Assembly (NCBI GenBank): GCA_002721445.1
Contig: PBKN01000009.1
Location: 80,242 to 144,241, forward strand
Length of the DNA stretch: 64,000 nucleotides
Direction: 5' to 3'
Origin: Chloroflexota bacterium
Lineage (GTDB): Bacteria; Chloroflexota; Dehalococcoidia; Lucifugimonadales; GCA-002723415
A model generated the notes under the pieces. That model was given only the letters and a program-made list of their open reading frames with translations, searched no databases and was not told the DNA's origin. Positions 289 to 49,420 of this stretch are shown here, in pieces (within the stretch, counting starts at the first letter, position 1; every line of letters begins with the position of its first letter). A program made the position numbers and the translations under genes.

Positions 289-2883
289 CTATTTATTTTT
301 AAATTTATATTTATTTATTAAATCCTGTATCTCATATAATTTAGAAATTGCATCCAAAGGTGTCATTAGAGATATATCTAAATCTAATATATCATCAAGT
401 ATTTGATCAGAATAATCAAATAATTTCATTTGAGAAGATCTGAAAACAGCATCGTCAAATTCTTTAACTGAGTAATCAGGACTAAATTCACTAGTATTTG
501 ATTCTAGTGAATTTAGTATTAAATTTGCTTTACTAATTACTTGATTAGGGAGACCAGCTAATTTTGCTACATTAATTCCATAACTTTTATTAGCTCCTCC
601 AGGAAGTATCTCTCTTAAAAATATAACTTCATCATTATCTTCTGAAACAGCAAAATGCAAATTTTTAACTAATGGATATTTATCAGATAATTTAATCATC
701 TCATGATAATGAGTTGCAAACAACGTTTTACATCCTAATTCAGGAGACTCATATAAAAACTCAGCTACAGCAGTAGCAATAGATAATCCATCATAGGTAC
801 TAGTACCTCTTCCAATTTCATCTAATATTACTAAAGATTTAGGTGTAGCATGATTTAATATCATAGCTGATTCAGACATTTCAACCATAAATGTTGACTT
901 ACCCATAGAAATATCATCTTGTAATCCAGCTCTAGTAAAAATACGATCTACTATACCAATATTTGCATATTTAGCAGGAACATAACTTCCTATCTGAGCC
1001 ATCAAAACTATTAGAGCAACTTGACGAATATAAGTGGATTTGCCTGACATATTGGGACCAGTTAATATAAGTAATCTATTTTCACTATTTGAAATCTTAA
1101 TATTATTAGAAACAAATGTACCGGGAGATACTAATGTTTCAACTACTGGATGTCTACTATCATTTATTTCTATTAAATCAGAATTACTAATTAAAGGACA
1201 TACATAAATATGCTCTAATGCAACTTCAGCAAAAGAGCTGAAAACATCAATTTGACCAATTGAATCAGCTAACGCCATAATAGCTTCATAATCTCTACCT
1301 ATATTTTCACAAATGTTCCTAAATAATTTTAATTCTATTTTTTTAATTCGCTCATCAGCATTCAACAATAATAGTTCATATTCTTTTAATTCAGGAGTAA
1401 TAAACCTCTCAGAACCTACTAAAGTTTGCTTCCTTATGTAGTTCTCTGGGACAAATTTAATATTAGAATTCCTAATTTCGATATAGTATCCGAAATTCTT
1501 GTTGTAACCAACTTTTAAAGACCGAATTCCTGTTTTATTTCTTTCTTCATTTTGAAGATTAGCAATGAAATTACGTGCATTTTTAGACATATCATAAATC
1601 TGATCTAATTCAGAAGAAAAACCTCGTTTTATAGTTTTACCATCTCCAACTAAATTAGTTGCTTCTAAATTTATAGAATTATTTATTAAAGATACAGCAC
1701 TATAATTATCTAATATACTTTCAACTATCCAGAACAAAGAATTATTATTACTATCTTTAATTAAAGATTTTATTTGAGGAGATAATTCAAGGCTATTTGA
1801 TAATGATAATAAATCTCTTGGAGTTGCAGAGAATCGTTTTATTTTACTCATCAATCTTTCTATATCAGATATTTGATTAAGCAATTCAATAATTGCTTTT
1901 CTATTTAGTCCATTCTTATACAACCAATTAACAACTTCTTGTCTTTTATTTATTTCTTCAACATTGATTAAAGGGAAAGATATAAATTTTTTCAACAACC
2001 TACTGCCAATTGGAGTTTGCGTTCTATTTAAAATACTATAAAGAGAGTTTTGGCTGTCAGAGTTATTTACATTTTCAAATAATTCCAAGTTTCTTTTTGT
2101 ATAATGATCTATAGACATAAATGAATTTGTTGAATAAGTAAAAAGCTTTTTTATTATATCTAAAGATTGAGGTTGTGTATCTTTAATATATGAAATTATT
2201 GCTCCTGCAGATATTATAGCTAAATCTAGGTTTGAACAGCCATATGCCTCTAAAGAAGAAACGCTAAAATGATTTAATAAAGTCTTTTTAGAATTTTCAT
2301 AATTAAATAATGTATTTGGTATGATTGTTAACTTATTTTCAAATTCCTTGGCAATATCAGAACCCTCAGACAATAATATCTCTGAAGGATTAATTCTAGA
2401 TAACTCATAAGAAAGTTCCCTGAGTTGAAATTGGGTAGTAGCAAATTCACCAGTAGTTATATCTATAAATGATAAACCAACTTCATCAGATTTAACAAAT
2501 ATAGACACAAGGTAATTATTTGAACTTATATCCAGCAAAGAATCTTCTACAATTGTTCCAGGAGTAACAACTCTAACGACTTCCCTATCTACAATTTTCT
2601 TCCCTTTTGTAGGCTCGCTTGTCTGTTCACATATAGCTACTTTATAGCCTTTTTTTATTAAAACTGACAAGTAAGTTTCTAAAGAATGGAAAGGTATACC
2701 AGCTAATGGTACTCTTTGACCTTTACCCATTTCCCTAGATGTTAAAGCAATGTCTAATTCTTTTGAAAGCAGTTTAGCATCAGAATCAAATGTTTCGTAA
2801 AAATCTCCCATTCTAAAAAGAAGTATTTCTTCCTTGTAATTATTTTTAATTGTGAGATATTGATGCCTTGCTGGAGTTACCAT
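289..2883 (-). CDS. mutS: DNA mismatch repair protein MutS
   Basis: This is the mismatch-recognition ATPase that opens methyl-independent mismatch repair in the cytoplasm. The 864-aa length is normal for MutS1. The mismatch-wedging motif is visible near the N-terminus (GDFYETF, Phe28 and Glu30). The C-terminal ATPase has a Walker A GPNMSGKST at about residues 610-617, a Walker B DEIGRGTSTYDG, and the ATHYHE switch motif. The ATG start gives the short N-terminal tail expected before the mismatch domain. The gene follows the ferredoxin reductase by 53 nt on the same strand. No mutL is visible in the window. Nothing looks truncated. Confidence 0.98.
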   Translation of the reverse strand: MVTPARHQYLTIKNNYKEEILLFRMGDFYETFDSDAKLLSKELDIALTSREMGKGQRVPLAGIPFHSLETYLSVLIKKGYKVAICEQTSEPTKGKKIVDREVVRVVTPGTIVEDSLLDISSNNYLVSIFVKSDEVGLSFIDITTGEFATTQFQLRELSYELSRINPSEILLSEGSDIAKEFENKLTIIPNTLFNYENSKKTLLNHFSVSSLEAYGCSNLDLAIISAGAIISYIKDTQPQSLDIIKKLFTYSTNSFMSIDHYTKRNLELFENVNNSDSQNSLYSILNRTQTPIGSRLLKKFISFPLINVEEINKRQEVVNWLYKNGLNRKAIIELLNQISDIERLMSKIKRFSATPRDLLSLSNSLELSPQIKSLIKDSNNNSLFWIVESILDNYSAVSLINNSINLEATNLVGDGKTIKRGFSSELDQIYDMSKNARNFIANLQNEERNKTGIRSLKVGYNKNFGYYIEIRNSNIKFVPENYIRKQTLVGSERFITPELKEYELLLLNADERIKKIELKLFRNICENIGRDYEAIMALADSIGQIDVFSSFAEVALEHIYVCPLISNSDLIEINDSRHPVVETLVSPGTFVSNNIKISNSENRLLILTGPNMSGKSTYIRQVALIVLMAQIGSYVPAKYANIGIVDRIFTRAGLQDDISMGKSTFMVEMSESAMILNHATPKSLVILDEIGRGTSTYDGLSIATAVAEFLYESPELGCKTLFATHYHEMIKLSDKYPLVKNLHFAVSEDNDEVIFLREILPGGANKSYGINVAKLAGLPNQVISKANLILNSLESNTSEFSPDYSVKEFDDAVFRSSQMKLFDYSDQILDDILDLDISLMTPLDAISKLYEIQDLINKYKFKNK

Positions 2884-2936
2884 ATATATATCACTTAGAG
2901 ATTAATTTAAAGAATGAAGAAACAAAAAAATTTATA

Positions 2937-3677
2937 TTAATCTTCTTTCCAATATCGCTCTTCTTCAATTGAAAAACCTTTGTCACCTAAAATTTCTTTA
3001 ACATTTTCTATCATACCTGGGTGCCCACATGCAGAAACTAAAGTATCATCAGAAGAAATATCAAATAAGTTAACATATTTTTCAACTATTTGATTAACCC
3101 TTCCAATTTCACCTGACCATTTAATATTTTCAGGTTCATTAGGTCTACTAATCGTAGGTATAAATTTAATAAAATCAGAATAAGAAGTTGATAAGTCTAT
3201 TAATTCAGAATCATATACAAATTCATCTATGTAACTAGCACCTAATAATATAAAAAACTTATTACCTAAACAAGATCGATAAATATAATCTCTAATATAA
3301 CTTATATATGGAACTATTCCTGTAACTGTAGCAATTAATAAATGATTAGTAAATTCTTCCTTAAAAGTAAAAAGCCCTTTGGCTCTAGGTCGAATTGTTA
3401 CTTGGTCTCCAACATTTAAATCATAAAGTTTAGGAGTTAATATACCATCAGGAAACGGCACTAATTCAATAAATAATTCGATTTTATCTTCATGAGGAGC
3501 TGAAACTATCGAATACGCTCTTTCAATACCATCAACTCCTATAGTACAGTACTGCCCTGGTTTAAAAGTAAAATTATTTGGTTTTTCTAAAAACAGACTC
3601 CATAAGTCTGATGTGTGGTCTTTCCTATCAACTATTGAAACTTTATCCAATTTGATTTTACGATTATTATTATTCAT
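2937..3677 (-). CDS. fpr: Ferredoxin/flavodoxin-NADP+ reductase, Fpr type
   Basis: A 246-aa flavoprotein predicted to exchange electrons between NADP(H) and ferredoxin or flavodoxin. The FAD-binding motif is ERAYSIVSAP, with the RxYS arginine and tyrosine. A following Rossmann-like half holds the pyridine nucleotide site (TVTGIVPYISYIRDY) and a C-terminal block ACGHPGMIENVKEIL. The chain ends near an aromatic YW, as in bacterial Fpr enzymes. It starts at an ATG 67 nt below nuoG on the same strand. Its position directly behind an NADH/Fe-S module suggests the two work on the same pools of NAD(P)H and ferredoxin; that link is inference from position only. Confidence 0.88.
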   Translation of the reverse strand: MNNNNRKIKLDKVSIVDRKDHTSDLWSLFLEKPNNFTFKPGQYCTIGVDGIERAYSIVSAPHEDKIELFIELVPFPDGILTPKLYDLNVGDQVTIRPRAKGLFTFKEEFTNHLLIATVTGIVPYISYIRDYIYRSCLGNKFFILLGASYIDEFVYDSELIDLSTSYSDFIKFIPTISRPNEPENIKWSGEIGRVNQIVEKYVNLFDISSDDTLVSACGHPGMIENVKEILGDKGFSIEEERYWKED

Positions 3678-3744
3678 ATATTTAATCCTAAGAGTTAATT
3701 TTTAATTTTTACGAAACAAAATTTAGTACTACACAAAATACTTA

Positions 3745-6477
3745 TTATACTTTAGTTAATTTTGCAAAAAGCAATTCATCTGAAATTGTATTAATCATTT
3801 CTCTTTCATTACTACCATATTCAAAATCACTAATTCTAGCACCAAATAATAAAGATGCACTAATTAAGCCTTCATGGGGGTAATCAACAGCAGCTGACCC
3901 TAATATCTTCATTCTTTGAGTTTCTACTTCAATCAAATCACCATCAGCAATAGAATACTTAGATGCATCATTATTATTAATATGAATTATTGGGTTGGTT
4001 TTAATATCACGTTTACCTTCATTATTTAAAATTTGTAAACCATTATCATTATCGTGCAATATATTTGATAAAGCTAATAAAAATGGAAATTCATTATGTG
4101 TATAAACTTCAATATCATTGGTAGTAAAAATTGCTAAGCTGAATTTCTTTTCTTCATTTTTATCATTAAGAATATTAATTCTAGAGTCCTCAGATGATAT
4201 CAGCTCATATGAAAATCCTGAATAACTTGGAATAAGAGAAACTATCTCTTTAAAAATATCTTCAGATTTTTCATAGTTAAAACTATCTGATTTCATAGCA
4301 ACAGCAATTTTACTTAAAATTTTCCATGTATGTTCTTGATCATTTTTTAAGCCCAAAGCTGGTGAGATCAATTGCACTAATCCTTCTAAATTTGTAACAC
4401 TTCCTTCTTTTTCCGCAAAATTTGTTGCAGGCAAAACCACATCAGCAAATTTAGTCAAATCAGTATTAAAACTATCTTCAACTATAAGTAATTCCAATTT
4501 ATTTAAACTATTGATGAATCCTTTAAATTCTGTAGCTGATAATCTTGGAAGATCACCTATAAAATATAAGCATTTAATTTCATTATTGTTAATAGCTTCA
4601 GAAAGCTCCTTGATACCTTTACCTTGAACTTTAGGTAATTTAGAATTCCAAATCCTCTCTATATCATTTTTTCTAGAATAATCCAAATAACCTGGTAAAT
4701 ATTTAGGGTTACAACCAACATCCTTAGAACCTTTATCATTACCGCCTGGGCTTAATGGATATAATCCTCCAAATTTATTATTATAATTACCTGTAATTAA
4801 TGATAGATTATAAATAGACTTAATGCATTCTTCTAAATATCTATCTTCAACAGTTTCTAAAGCATATAAAATTGATCCTAACCCAGCTTTAGCAAATAGA
4901 CGAGCAGAATTTTTTATAGTATCAACAGGAACGCCAGTGACTTCTGAGACTTTAATAACATCAAAATTCCAAATGTATTTTCTAAAATCTGCAATATTAT
5001 TAACTCTATTATACAAAAAATCATGATTATCAAGAGATTCATCTAGAATCACTCTAATCATTCCAGATATAAAAATTGATTCAGTATTTGGTTTAACTTT
5101 TATGAAAAGCGAAGCACTTTTAGAAATTTCAGTTTCTCTTTGATCTACCACAATCAATTTTGACCCATTTTTAACTGCTCTTTTAACAGGTAATCCAACA
5201 ACATTGTTTTCTAAAAGTAAATCAGTAGAAATCATCATAATCACATCAGATTTCTCAATATCCCATATAGAATTTTCAGGTCTTAAATTACCAGTTAATT
5301 CTCTAGTCAAGTCAGATATTTCGGGTTTGTAATTTGTTGAAATATCAACATTATTAGATTTCATAACTAATCTTGCAAACTTTTGAACAACATAATTATC
5401 TTCGTTTGTACCTTCACCAGAAGCGATTAACGCAAATTTATCTCCTTTATAATTATTAAAATTAACAGCTAAATGATCAATTACATCATGCCAAGATACA
5501 ATTTCTAAATCCCCAATTTTATTACGTATCATTGGGTTATTTATCCTATTCTTACTATTCACAATATCTAATCCAAATTTACTCTTAAAACAACCTTGCC
5601 CATGATTTGAAAAACCATTTAAATCAGGTATTGATCTTATCATTCTATTTCTTTTATCCACCTCTAATGTCAACTTGCATCCAACTGGACAGAAAGTACA
5701 AACAGAAGATACTTTTTTTACAGCTTTATCCCATTTATATTTGCGTTCTACTAAAGCACCTGTAGGACATACATCAATACATGCCCCACAAAATTCACAA
5801 CCAGATTCTATTAAAGATGATCCTTTAGCTGTACCAATTAAAGTTCTACCAGATCTTTCCAATAAAGTTATTGCACTATCCCCTCTAACTTCATCACATA
5901 CTCTTACACATCTCACACAAGCAATACATAAATTCATATCCATATCCCAAAATGGATCAGTAGTATGCAAAGGAATATTGCGGTTATTATAGGTTAATGG
6001 TGAATCCATATCCATTTCTAAGTATCTAACAGTATCTTTTAATTCACATCTTTCATTTTTAGGACAAGTCACACATCTATCATTAACAGATACGTGTCTA
6101 AGACACACATCTGATGGACCACATAATTCTACTCTATGACACGTAAGACACCCATGAGGATGTTCTGTAAGTAATAAATCCATAATTCCTTTACGAGTAG
6201 AGTCGATATTAGTATTTTTAGTTTTTACTCGCATTCCTTCATTAACAGGAGTAGTACAAGCTGCAGGAGTTCCAGGTATAGGTCTGTACTTTCCATCAGG
6301 GCCAATTTGCTCAACTTCAACTACACACATTCTACAAGCACCAAAAGATTTCATTCCGGGATAATAGCATAGATATGGTATGTATTTTTCTGAATCAATA
6401 GCAGCTTGGAGAATATTAGAACCATTTTTTGCTTTAATTTCTTCTCCATCTAAAGAAAAAGTTATTTCATCTGACAC
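3745..6477 (-). CDS. nuoG: NuoG/FdhA-like Fe-S and molybdopterin-fold subunit
   Basis: A 910-aa iron-sulfur protein that would pass electrons from the NuoF flavin. In order it has an N-terminal 2Fe-2S domain (CYYPG, CRMCVVEV, CTTPV), a Cys3His region (HPHGCLTCHRVELCG), two 4Fe-4S clusters (CIACVRCVRVC and CEFCGACIDVCPTGA), the molybdopterin-type 4Fe-4S site (CTFCPVGC, later GQGC), and a long molybdopterin-oxidoreductase fold. In the region where a formate dehydrogenase carries its Cys or Sec ligand to Mo, I see neither Cys nor an in-frame UGA. A NuoG-like electron-transfer role is therefore favoured over formate dehydrogenase. The start is GTG overlapping the nuoF stop by one base, with GGAGG upstream. 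Confidence 0.87.
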   Translation of the reverse strand: MSDEITFSLDGEEIKAKNGSNILQAAIDSEKYIPYLCYYPGMKSFGACRMCVVEVEQIGPDGKYRPIPGTPAACTTPVNEGMRVKTKNTNIDSTRKGIMDLLLTEHPHGCLTCHRVELCGPSDVCLRHVSVNDRCVTCPKNERCELKDTVRYLEMDMDSPLTYNNRNIPLHTTDPFWDMDMNLCIACVRCVRVCDEVRGDSAITLLERSGRTLIGTAKGSSLIESGCEFCGACIDVCPTGALVERKYKWDKAVKKVSSVCTFCPVGCKLTLEVDKRNRMIRSIPDLNGFSNHGQGCFKSKFGLDIVNSKNRINNPMIRNKIGDLEIVSWHDVIDHLAVNFNNYKGDKFALIASGEGTNEDNYVVQKFARLVMKSNNVDISTNYKPEISDLTRELTGNLRPENSIWDIEKSDVIMMISTDLLLENNVVGLPVKRAVKNGSKLIVVDQRETEISKSASLFIKVKPNTESIFISGMIRVILDESLDNHDFLYNRVNNIADFRKYIWNFDVIKVSEVTGVPVDTIKNSARLFAKAGLGSILYALETVEDRYLEECIKSIYNLSLITGNYNNKFGGLYPLSPGGNDKGSKDVGCNPKYLPGYLDYSRKNDIERIWNSKLPKVQGKGIKELSEAINNNEIKCLYFIGDLPRLSATEFKGFINSLNKLELLIVEDSFNTDLTKFADVVLPATNFAEKEGSVTNLEGLVQLISPALGLKNDQEHTWKILSKIAVAMKSDSFNYEKSEDIFKEIVSLIPSYSGFSYELISSEDSRINILNDKNEEKKFSLAIFTTNDIEVYTHNEFPFLLALSNILHDNDNGLQILNNEGKRDIKTNPIIHINNNDASKYSIADGDLIEVETQRMKILGSAAVDYPHEGLISASLLFGARISDFEYGSNEREMINTISDELLFAKLTKV

Positions 6478-38012: not shown

Positions 38013-38048
38013 AATAATCCTCGCTCCTCGAAGGACTAGACATATTAT

Positions 38049-38142
38049 AAATGGCAGTAGACCGGGCTCGTGAAAATCACCTACCGTTGCGGGTCAGCGT
38101 CGGAATTTGACCGACTTCCCTTTTAAGTCAAAGACACCATTA
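38049..38142 (-). ncRNA. Cobalamin (B12) riboswitch
   Basis: Read on the minus strand, the leader shows the conserved cobalamin-riboswitch core in order: AAAAGGGAAGTCGGT, AATTCCGACGC, the B12 box GCTGACCCGCAAC (about 38086-38098), then GGTAGGTG and GCCCGGTCTACTGCC. The outer ends AATGG and CCATT can pair as P1. Between it and the btuF start, a short hairpin TCCTTCGAGGA (38025-38035) lies close to the GAGGA Shine-Dalgarno, suggesting translational control. The element predicts repression of btuFCD when adenosylcobalamin or a related corrinoid is plentiful. Confidence 0.92.
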
Positions 38143-40348
<2,206 letters not shown>

Positions 40349-46869: not shown

Positions 46870-47361
46870 TTGTACTTTATAATAAATCAATTTTCGTTTC
46901 TTTTAGTTTCGGTATTTTTACTAATATGTGTAACTATAATATCTAGGCAAATATTAGATTTCAAAATTACTTTGGTATTTATATTAATAATTACTAGTGG
47001 TTTAATTTTTACGCAAATATTTTTAAAAACAAAAACATCTGAAATTACAAAAATAGAAGATTTAAATAAATCTTTAGAATCTCATAAATTTACTTTAATA
47101 CAAATATATTCTGATTACTGAGTTGCTTGCTTATCATCAAAGCCTATAGTTGATAGGTTAGAATCAGAATTAGCAAAAGACATAAACTTTATAAGATTAG
47201 ATATCAATTCAGAACTAGGTAAATATATACGTAAAAATTACCAAATAAATACTGTACCATCATACTTAATATTAAATAAAGAAAAAGAAAAAATTTGGAG
47301 ACAAAATTTAAATGTACCAAGTATTGAATTAATTAATCAAATTAAGGAAAGTAATTCATAA
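46870..47361 (+). CDS. Membrane-anchored selenocysteine thioredoxin (in-frame UGA)
   Basis: A 163-aa protein if UGA 47119-47121 is read as selenocysteine (residue 84). Two N-terminal membrane helices (about residues 8-24 and 33-53) precede a thioredoxin domain: FTLIQIYSDY, then U-V-A-C with Cys87, then LSSKPIVDRLESEL, and the cis-proline loop NTVPSYLIL (Pro130) followed by KIWRQ. Read as a stop, UGA would cut the protein exactly at the active site. The downstream 79 codons stay open to a TAA and keep all thioredoxin landmarks. Start TTG 46870 follows an in-frame stop at 46864, with AAGAG 6 nt upstream. It should face outward and act in thiol/disulfide exchange. Partner enzymes are unknown. 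Confidence 0.85.
47119..47157 (+). promoter_or_regulatory. Candidate bacterial SECIS element 1
   Basis: From the recoded UGA (47119-47121) a stem-loop follows with arms CTTATCATC (47130-47138) and GTTGATAGG (47149-47157), eight of nine positions pairing with one U-U mismatch, and a 10-nt loop containing G. The stem starts 9 nt after the UGA, the spacing needed for SelB-bound Sec-tRNA delivery. The pairing is AT-rich and less striking than in element 2. Confidence 0.6.
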
Positions 47362-48868: not shown

Positions 48869-49420
48869 ATGAAAAAATCAATATATATATTCGTATTTTT
48901 AATTTTTATACTTATAATCAGCTGTTCTGATAAAGAAAAAATAATTAATAGAAATGATGCTAATTCAAATTTTGAAAAAGAATCAATTAGTATTGTTAAA
49001 AATAAAATTGCTCCAAATTTCTCTCTAACTTCAATCGATGGAACTATAATAAATTATGAATCTAGCAATGACACAATTAAACCTAAATTCTTATTTTTTC
49101 TTTCGAAGTACTGAGGTACATGTCGCTCCGAGTTGCGGAGCTTAATTCCAATATATTCTAAATATTCCAACAACATAGATTTTTTGATTATTAGTATCGA
49201 ACAAAATGAATCTAAATTAGACTTAAAAAATTTTGCAACTAAAGAAAACCATCCATGGGAGATATTTAGTGCAGATAAAAAGACTATGGAGTCACTTAAT
49301 GTCACACAGCAATCAACTAAAATTTTCATCAATAAAAAAAATGAAATTATATATAAAGGAAATTATGGAGAAGGGTCTATATCTGAATGGACAGAATTAT
49401 TTAATAGTGCTATAAATTAA
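48869..49420 (+). CDS. TlpA-like selenocysteine lipoprotein (in-frame UGA)
   Basis: A 183-aa protein if UGA 49112-49114 is selenocysteine (residue 82). The N-terminus is a lipoprotein signal: KK, a hydrophobic run, and lipobox IISC with Cys19. The AhpC/TlpA-type domain begins with IAPNFSLTSIDGTIINY, reaches FLFFLSKY, then the active site U-G-T-C with Cys85, then RSELRSLIPIYSKY, DFLIISIEQ, and a C-terminal strand pair ending with WTELFNSAIN. The usual cis-Pro is replaced: TQQSTKIFI has Ser149 there. A GC-rich hairpin follows the UGA. A lipid-anchored seleno-reductase outside the cytoplasm is predicted. The start ATG has only a weak Shine-Dalgarno. The TPP gene follows 36 nt later. Confidence 0.88.
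49112..49141 (+). promoter_or_regulatory. Candidate bacterial SECIS element 2
   Basis: Behind the recoded UGA (49112-49114) lies a perfect 6-bp GC-rich stem, GCTCCG (49125-49130) with CGGAGC (49136-49141), closing a 5-nt loop AGTTG. The stem starts 10 nt after the UGA and the loop with its GU lies 17-21 nt after it, as in characterised bacterial SECIS elements. Five of six pairs are G-C in DNA that is otherwise about 70% AT, and the hairpin lies inside coding sequence (TCRSELRS), so it stands out. Confidence 0.78.

Follow-up and report, generated by a model that had tools for sequence, protein, structure and literature searches.

The locus considered here raises the question of whether an open reading frame interrupted by a single UGA codon is a broken gene or the gene of a selenoprotein. 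It lies in a stretch of 64,000 nucleotides, referred to as the window, from a SAR202-type Dehalococcoidia genome (1.71 Mb, 99% complete). A preliminary description had reported a gene broken at this UGA in the standard code, and its frame was reproduced in full: translation starts at ATG 48869, the UGA at 49112–49114 (residue 82) is the sole interruption, and 101 further codons lead to TAA 49418–49420. Termination at the UGA would leave a truncated product of 81 aa. Reading through it gives the protein of 183 aa already described, with the UGA residue first in a U-G-T-C motif, and the apparently broken gene is very probably a genuine selenoprotein gene that would encode a lipid-anchored redox protein. 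The features of the frame are the following:

48869–49420, forward strand: predicted selenoprotein gene, ResA/TlpA-type thioredoxin-fold lipoprotein, 183 aa with UGA as selenocysteine (Sec)
48869–48925, forward strand: signal sequence with lipobox I-I-S-C, predicted lipidated Cys19 at codon 48923–48925
49112–49114, forward strand: UGA codon of Sec82, residue 1 of the U-G-T-C active site, in a TGA/Cys column of the homologues
49121–49123, forward strand: codon TGT of the resolving Cys85 of U-x-x-C, invariant in homologue alignments

The read-through protein, MKKSIYIFVFLIFILIISC...FFLSKYUGTCRSELRSL..., comprises a lipobox signal sequence, a linker and a thioredoxin-fold domain. The lipobox was recognised by pattern match (LIISC, Cys19), as expected of a bacterial lipoprotein, and a lipobox-like signal was found in 23 of 30 homologues, which bears out the earlier lipoprotein assignment. 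The protein scored over the curated cut-offs of PF00578 (37.5 bits, cut-off 26) and PF08534 (33.8 bits, cut-off 26.6). A structure predicted by AlphaFold2, for which the window protein was aligned with homologues from the genome collection, had a mean pLDDT of 84.8, and its top PDB matches were ResA structures (TM-score about 0.84 by target). Profile matches and fold place the protein in the AhpC-TSA/TlpA-ResA thioredoxin-fold superfamily, in agreement with the TlpA/AhpC-type fold first proposed. It shares with ResA, TlpA and DsbE (NF002854, TIGR00385; PDB 1st9, 2h1b, 4nmu) the fold, the extracytoplasmic membrane attachment and the xxxC active site, but differs from them in having Sec for the first Cys and no cis-proline, and it lies outside ResA proper, with 45.1 bits against a cut-off of 170 in NF002854; both the ResA and the DsbE models of NCBIfam matched it below their cut-offs.

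Homologues of the gene were found in 76 of 98 genomes of the same order, the strong matches mostly carrying one in-frame TGA; a broad alignment (A1) was without a conserved stretch and the narrower A2 was used for the search of the genome collection. The closest homologues were 31–38% identical in a genome set free of members of the same family. At the Sec column the distinct sequences had TGA (74), TGT (eight), TGC (four), TGG (one) and AGT (one). Among the sequences with a Cys codon, six were family members and the rest were ordinary ResA-like proteins that keep the cis-proline. The in-frame UGA is thus aligned with UGA or Cys, as is characteristic of bacterial selenoproteins, and homologues of both kinds, which had been suggested as a check, do exist. 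The Sec/Cys pair, Glu88 and Trp174 were among the residues invariant across the alignment. In a phylum sample of 251 genomes, just two matches reaching E 1e-15 were obtained besides the window's own genome, both from more distant members of the Chloroflexota and each with one TGA. The single TGG copy (L080, G089:C282:6287-6943) has this codon in place of TGA beside an intact SECIS hairpin, which reflects either faulty assembly or decay of the gene.

Directly downstream of the UGA, the RNA can form a hairpin:

49125–49141, forward strand: bacterial SECIS (bSECIS) hairpin, stem GCUCCG/CGGAGC, loop AGUUG, backed by covariation and a codon-choice test

Its arms (49125–49130 and 49136–49141) enclose the loop 49131–49135, and the stem begins 10 nt past the UGA. 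Six base pairs, the AGTTG loop and the 10-nt spacing stood as first described; the stem had also been called all-GC, which was incorrect, as one of its pairs is U-A and the other five are G-C. The loop lies 17–21 nt past the UGA and has G at its second position. Bacterial SECIS elements have their apical loops at such a distance from the UGA, with a G among the first loop positions, so that the hairpin conforms to this type. A search of Rfam for a SECIS family gave no match to the hairpin.

One rival explanation is that the frame is a pseudogene, or contains a sequencing error from TGT or TGC to TGA, and that the hairpin arose by chance. Most of the TlpA/ResA superfamily have Cys at the UGA position and a single base change turns Cys into UGA; moreover, the isolated 41-nt fold had a z-score of only -1.42, which is weak when taken alone. 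Since the folding energy was insignificant by itself, codon usage and covariation were examined. The hairpin codons CGC TCC GAG TTG CGG AGC are minority choices in a window of 29% GC (CGC and CGG make up 1.6% and 0.9% of its Arg codons, respectively), and synonymous recoding at the codon usage of the window produced six Watson-Crick pairs with a probability of about 3e-6. Across the 74 distinct UGA members, 5.57 of the 6 stem pairs were formed, compared with 3.04 after uniform synonymous recoding and 5.04 (sd 0.04) after column-wise synonymous permutation within amino-acid classes, whereas the six Cys family members formed 1–4 of 6 pairs, the hairpin being degraded. The covariation score was 0.775, against 0.237 when shuffled. 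In 18 members, 29 cells were altered on both sides (8.8 in shuffles) and pairing amounted to 99.1% (30–60% in slid controls); these members had been picked for diversity and visible pairing, so that the figures for all 74 are less affected by selection. The same UGA with an aligned, covarying hairpin in 74 distinct sequences, the frame open well past the UGA and the loss of the hairpin in Cys members make a pseudogene or sequencing error vanishingly improbable, and it was regarded as refuted by the conserved UGA and the covariation. The misreading of TGT or TGC as TGA, which had been named as a possible refutation of the selenoprotein, is excluded by the same 74 sequences.

A further possibility is that a genome-wide or local change of the code makes the UGA specify Trp, Cys or some other amino acid instead of Sec, and recoding to Cys would be compatible with the protein chemistry of a Cys-like position. 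However, TGA terminates five of the 35 long open reading frames of the window, so the code as a whole is unchanged, and the genome has a complete selenocysteine pathway: selA, selB and selD scored over curated cut-offs, and selC is present as a tRNA-Sec with anticodon TCA (UCA). All four genes, proposed earlier as a check and characteristic of genomes with bacterial selenoproteins, were accordingly found, and selD carries an in-frame UGA of its own (NSGGUASK, L017:1471-2532). Additionally, the UGA form is associated with selA across genomes. In the order, selA was over its cut-off in 83 of the 98 genomes. It occurred in 50 of 52 with the UGA form versus 34 of 46 lacking that form (p = 0.003). 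The only UGA-form genomes from which selA is absent are two assemblies 83% and 65% complete, and selA is missing from the Cys-form genomes G030, G041 and G097. On the TGA-ended frames, the full pathway and the selA association, a code change was rejected as very unlikely.

Selenocysteine being the preferred reading, a mechanism can be proposed from the sequence. Because the element is conserved and the machinery complete, SelB and Sec-tRNA(Sec) would recognise the AGUUG-loop hairpin just past UGA 49112 and insert selenocysteine 82. The lipoprotein would then be exported, lipidated at Cys19 and tethered by its short linker to the outer face of the membrane, where Sec82-Gly-Thr-Cys85 may serve as the selenol/thiol pair of a ResA/TlpA-like redox reaction. 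In the predicted cycle, Sec82 would attack a disulfide or a sulfenic or peroxidic group as its oxidised substrate at the cell surface, after which Cys85 would resolve the mixed bond by forming a selenenylsulfide with Sec82.

The nature of the substrate is touched by one further residue:

49313–49315, forward strand: codon of Ser149, at the thioredoxin cis-proline position by profile alignment to 2m72

The replacement of the cis-proline by Ser149, noted from the outset, was confirmed by this alignment. In 73 aligned UGA members the column contains S (56), A (12), G (3), T (1) and P (1), and Cys family members mostly have QS. As Ser is found in Cys members too, while ordinary ResA-like proteins caught by the same profile retain Pro, the change is a signature of the subfamily, independent of selenium, and the family norm instead of a local oddity. 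According to the part of PMC2757866 that cites Su et al. 2007, the cis-proline precludes metal binding by active-site thiolates; it is also reported to aid substrate binding, and peroxiredoxins have Arg at this position (PMC2757866). Given these two roles, the changed residue may mean a substrate mode unlike that of ordinary thioredoxins, and it weakens the case for standard disulfide reductase activity. It was considered whether the selenoprotein has a function other than that of ResA, such as binding of a metal or Fe-S cluster or reduction of a peroxide or organic oxide, with the loss of the cis-proline as its mark. The Ser, Ala, Gly or Thr present in 72 of 73 UGA members, the reported bar of the cis-proline to metal binding and the peroxiredoxin Arg speak for such a function, but the overall fold and the U-x-x-C geometry of the model are ResA-like and no further invariant Cys or His was available in the alignment as a potential metal ligand, and this alternative is judged unlikely. 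That a selenoprotein subfamily centred on SAR202 and devoid of the cis-proline carries out non-thioredoxin chemistry at the surface, by binding a metal or cluster or by reducing an oxidised small molecule, is likewise a rather doubtful proposal. A ResA/TlpA-like redox lipoprotein with selenocysteine remains the favoured reading.

Marine bacteria are already known to have selenoproteins with a thioredoxin fold and a UxxC motif. Peroxiredoxin-like and thiol-disulfide-isomerase-like members were described from the Sargasso Sea in 2005 (PMC1088965) and found in Global Ocean Sampling data in 2008 (PMC2398784), and a 2026 review lists selenoproteins of the same kind (PMC13188914). Compared by domain and motif description with these families, some of them listed as 'Redoxin family' (PF00578, cd02966, PF08534; references WP_010940744.1, MGB1650493.1 and HEU0032618.1), the window gene fits, as their tables show (PMC2398784, PMC13188914): it has a thioredoxin fold with PF00578 over cut-off, Sec first in UxxC, a bSECIS directly downstream and a marine bacterial host. 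Its own subfamily consists of lipoproteins, is found mainly in the SAR202 order and has Ser/Ala at the cis-proline position, traits that may set it apart from the published families. A seleno-thioredoxin fold is shared with the TUGYCR-motif thioredoxin-fold (seleno)proteins of NF053656, but the motif is different and the score of 20.8 bits fell short of the cut-off, which is 100. Similarly, the pneumococcal surface lipoprotein thioredoxins Etrx1 and Etrx2 (PDB 4hqs, 2yp6) have a lipid-anchored extracellular TlpA-like domain, but with a Cys active site, and are not selenoproteins. The lipid-anchored selenoprotein had been called unusual; the protein and its Ser149 are real, but its rarity must be toned down, the family being order-wide and its UxxC kind established.

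The loss of the cis-proline is the sole feature with some claim to novelty, and specialists are likeliest to be interested in its natural occurrence next to an active site with selenocysteine, the matched Sec and Cys forms providing a natural test of cis-proline replacement in a seleno-thioredoxin fold. SAR202 bacteria, which form a major uncultivated group in the dark ocean, commonly have the selenocysteine pathway and are predicted to use selenium in surface redox lipoproteins, whose genes would be cut at the UGA by standard annotation. The literature searched contained no paper on selenoproteins in SAR202.

Other selenoprotein genes of the genome were sought among PF00578 matches and in the window, where a second candidate was found 1.5 kb upstream of the lipoprotein gene:

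46870–47361, forward strand: second predicted selenoprotein, membrane thioredoxin with U-V-A-C, UGA 47119–47121 (PF00085, E 3.9e-8)
47141–47159, forward strand: hairpin AGCCUAU-AGUUG-AUAGGUU of this gene, downstream of UGA 47119–47121

Its product has two hydrophobic stretches followed by the thioredoxin domain, and its relatives in the order retain the UGA and a similar hairpin. The PF00578 search revealed two more UGA genes in the same genome (L003:1501-1881 and L005:1501-1833). One encodes a peroxiredoxin (FTEGU) and the other a TlpA protein of UGC type (WUGCREQ), and selenoproteins of both kinds are known. The neighbourhood of one homologous locus, on a SAR202 chromosome (L063), showed no obvious functional partner and did not indicate a substrate. 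That chromosome carries tandem UGA paralogues of the lipoprotein family (2651–3274 and 3320–4411, both forward strand) and, close beside them, a gene for a UGSC-type selenoprotein (4214–5152, reverse strand). An RNA element was also noted in the window:

38035–38156, reverse strand: cobalamin riboswitch, 53.1 bits
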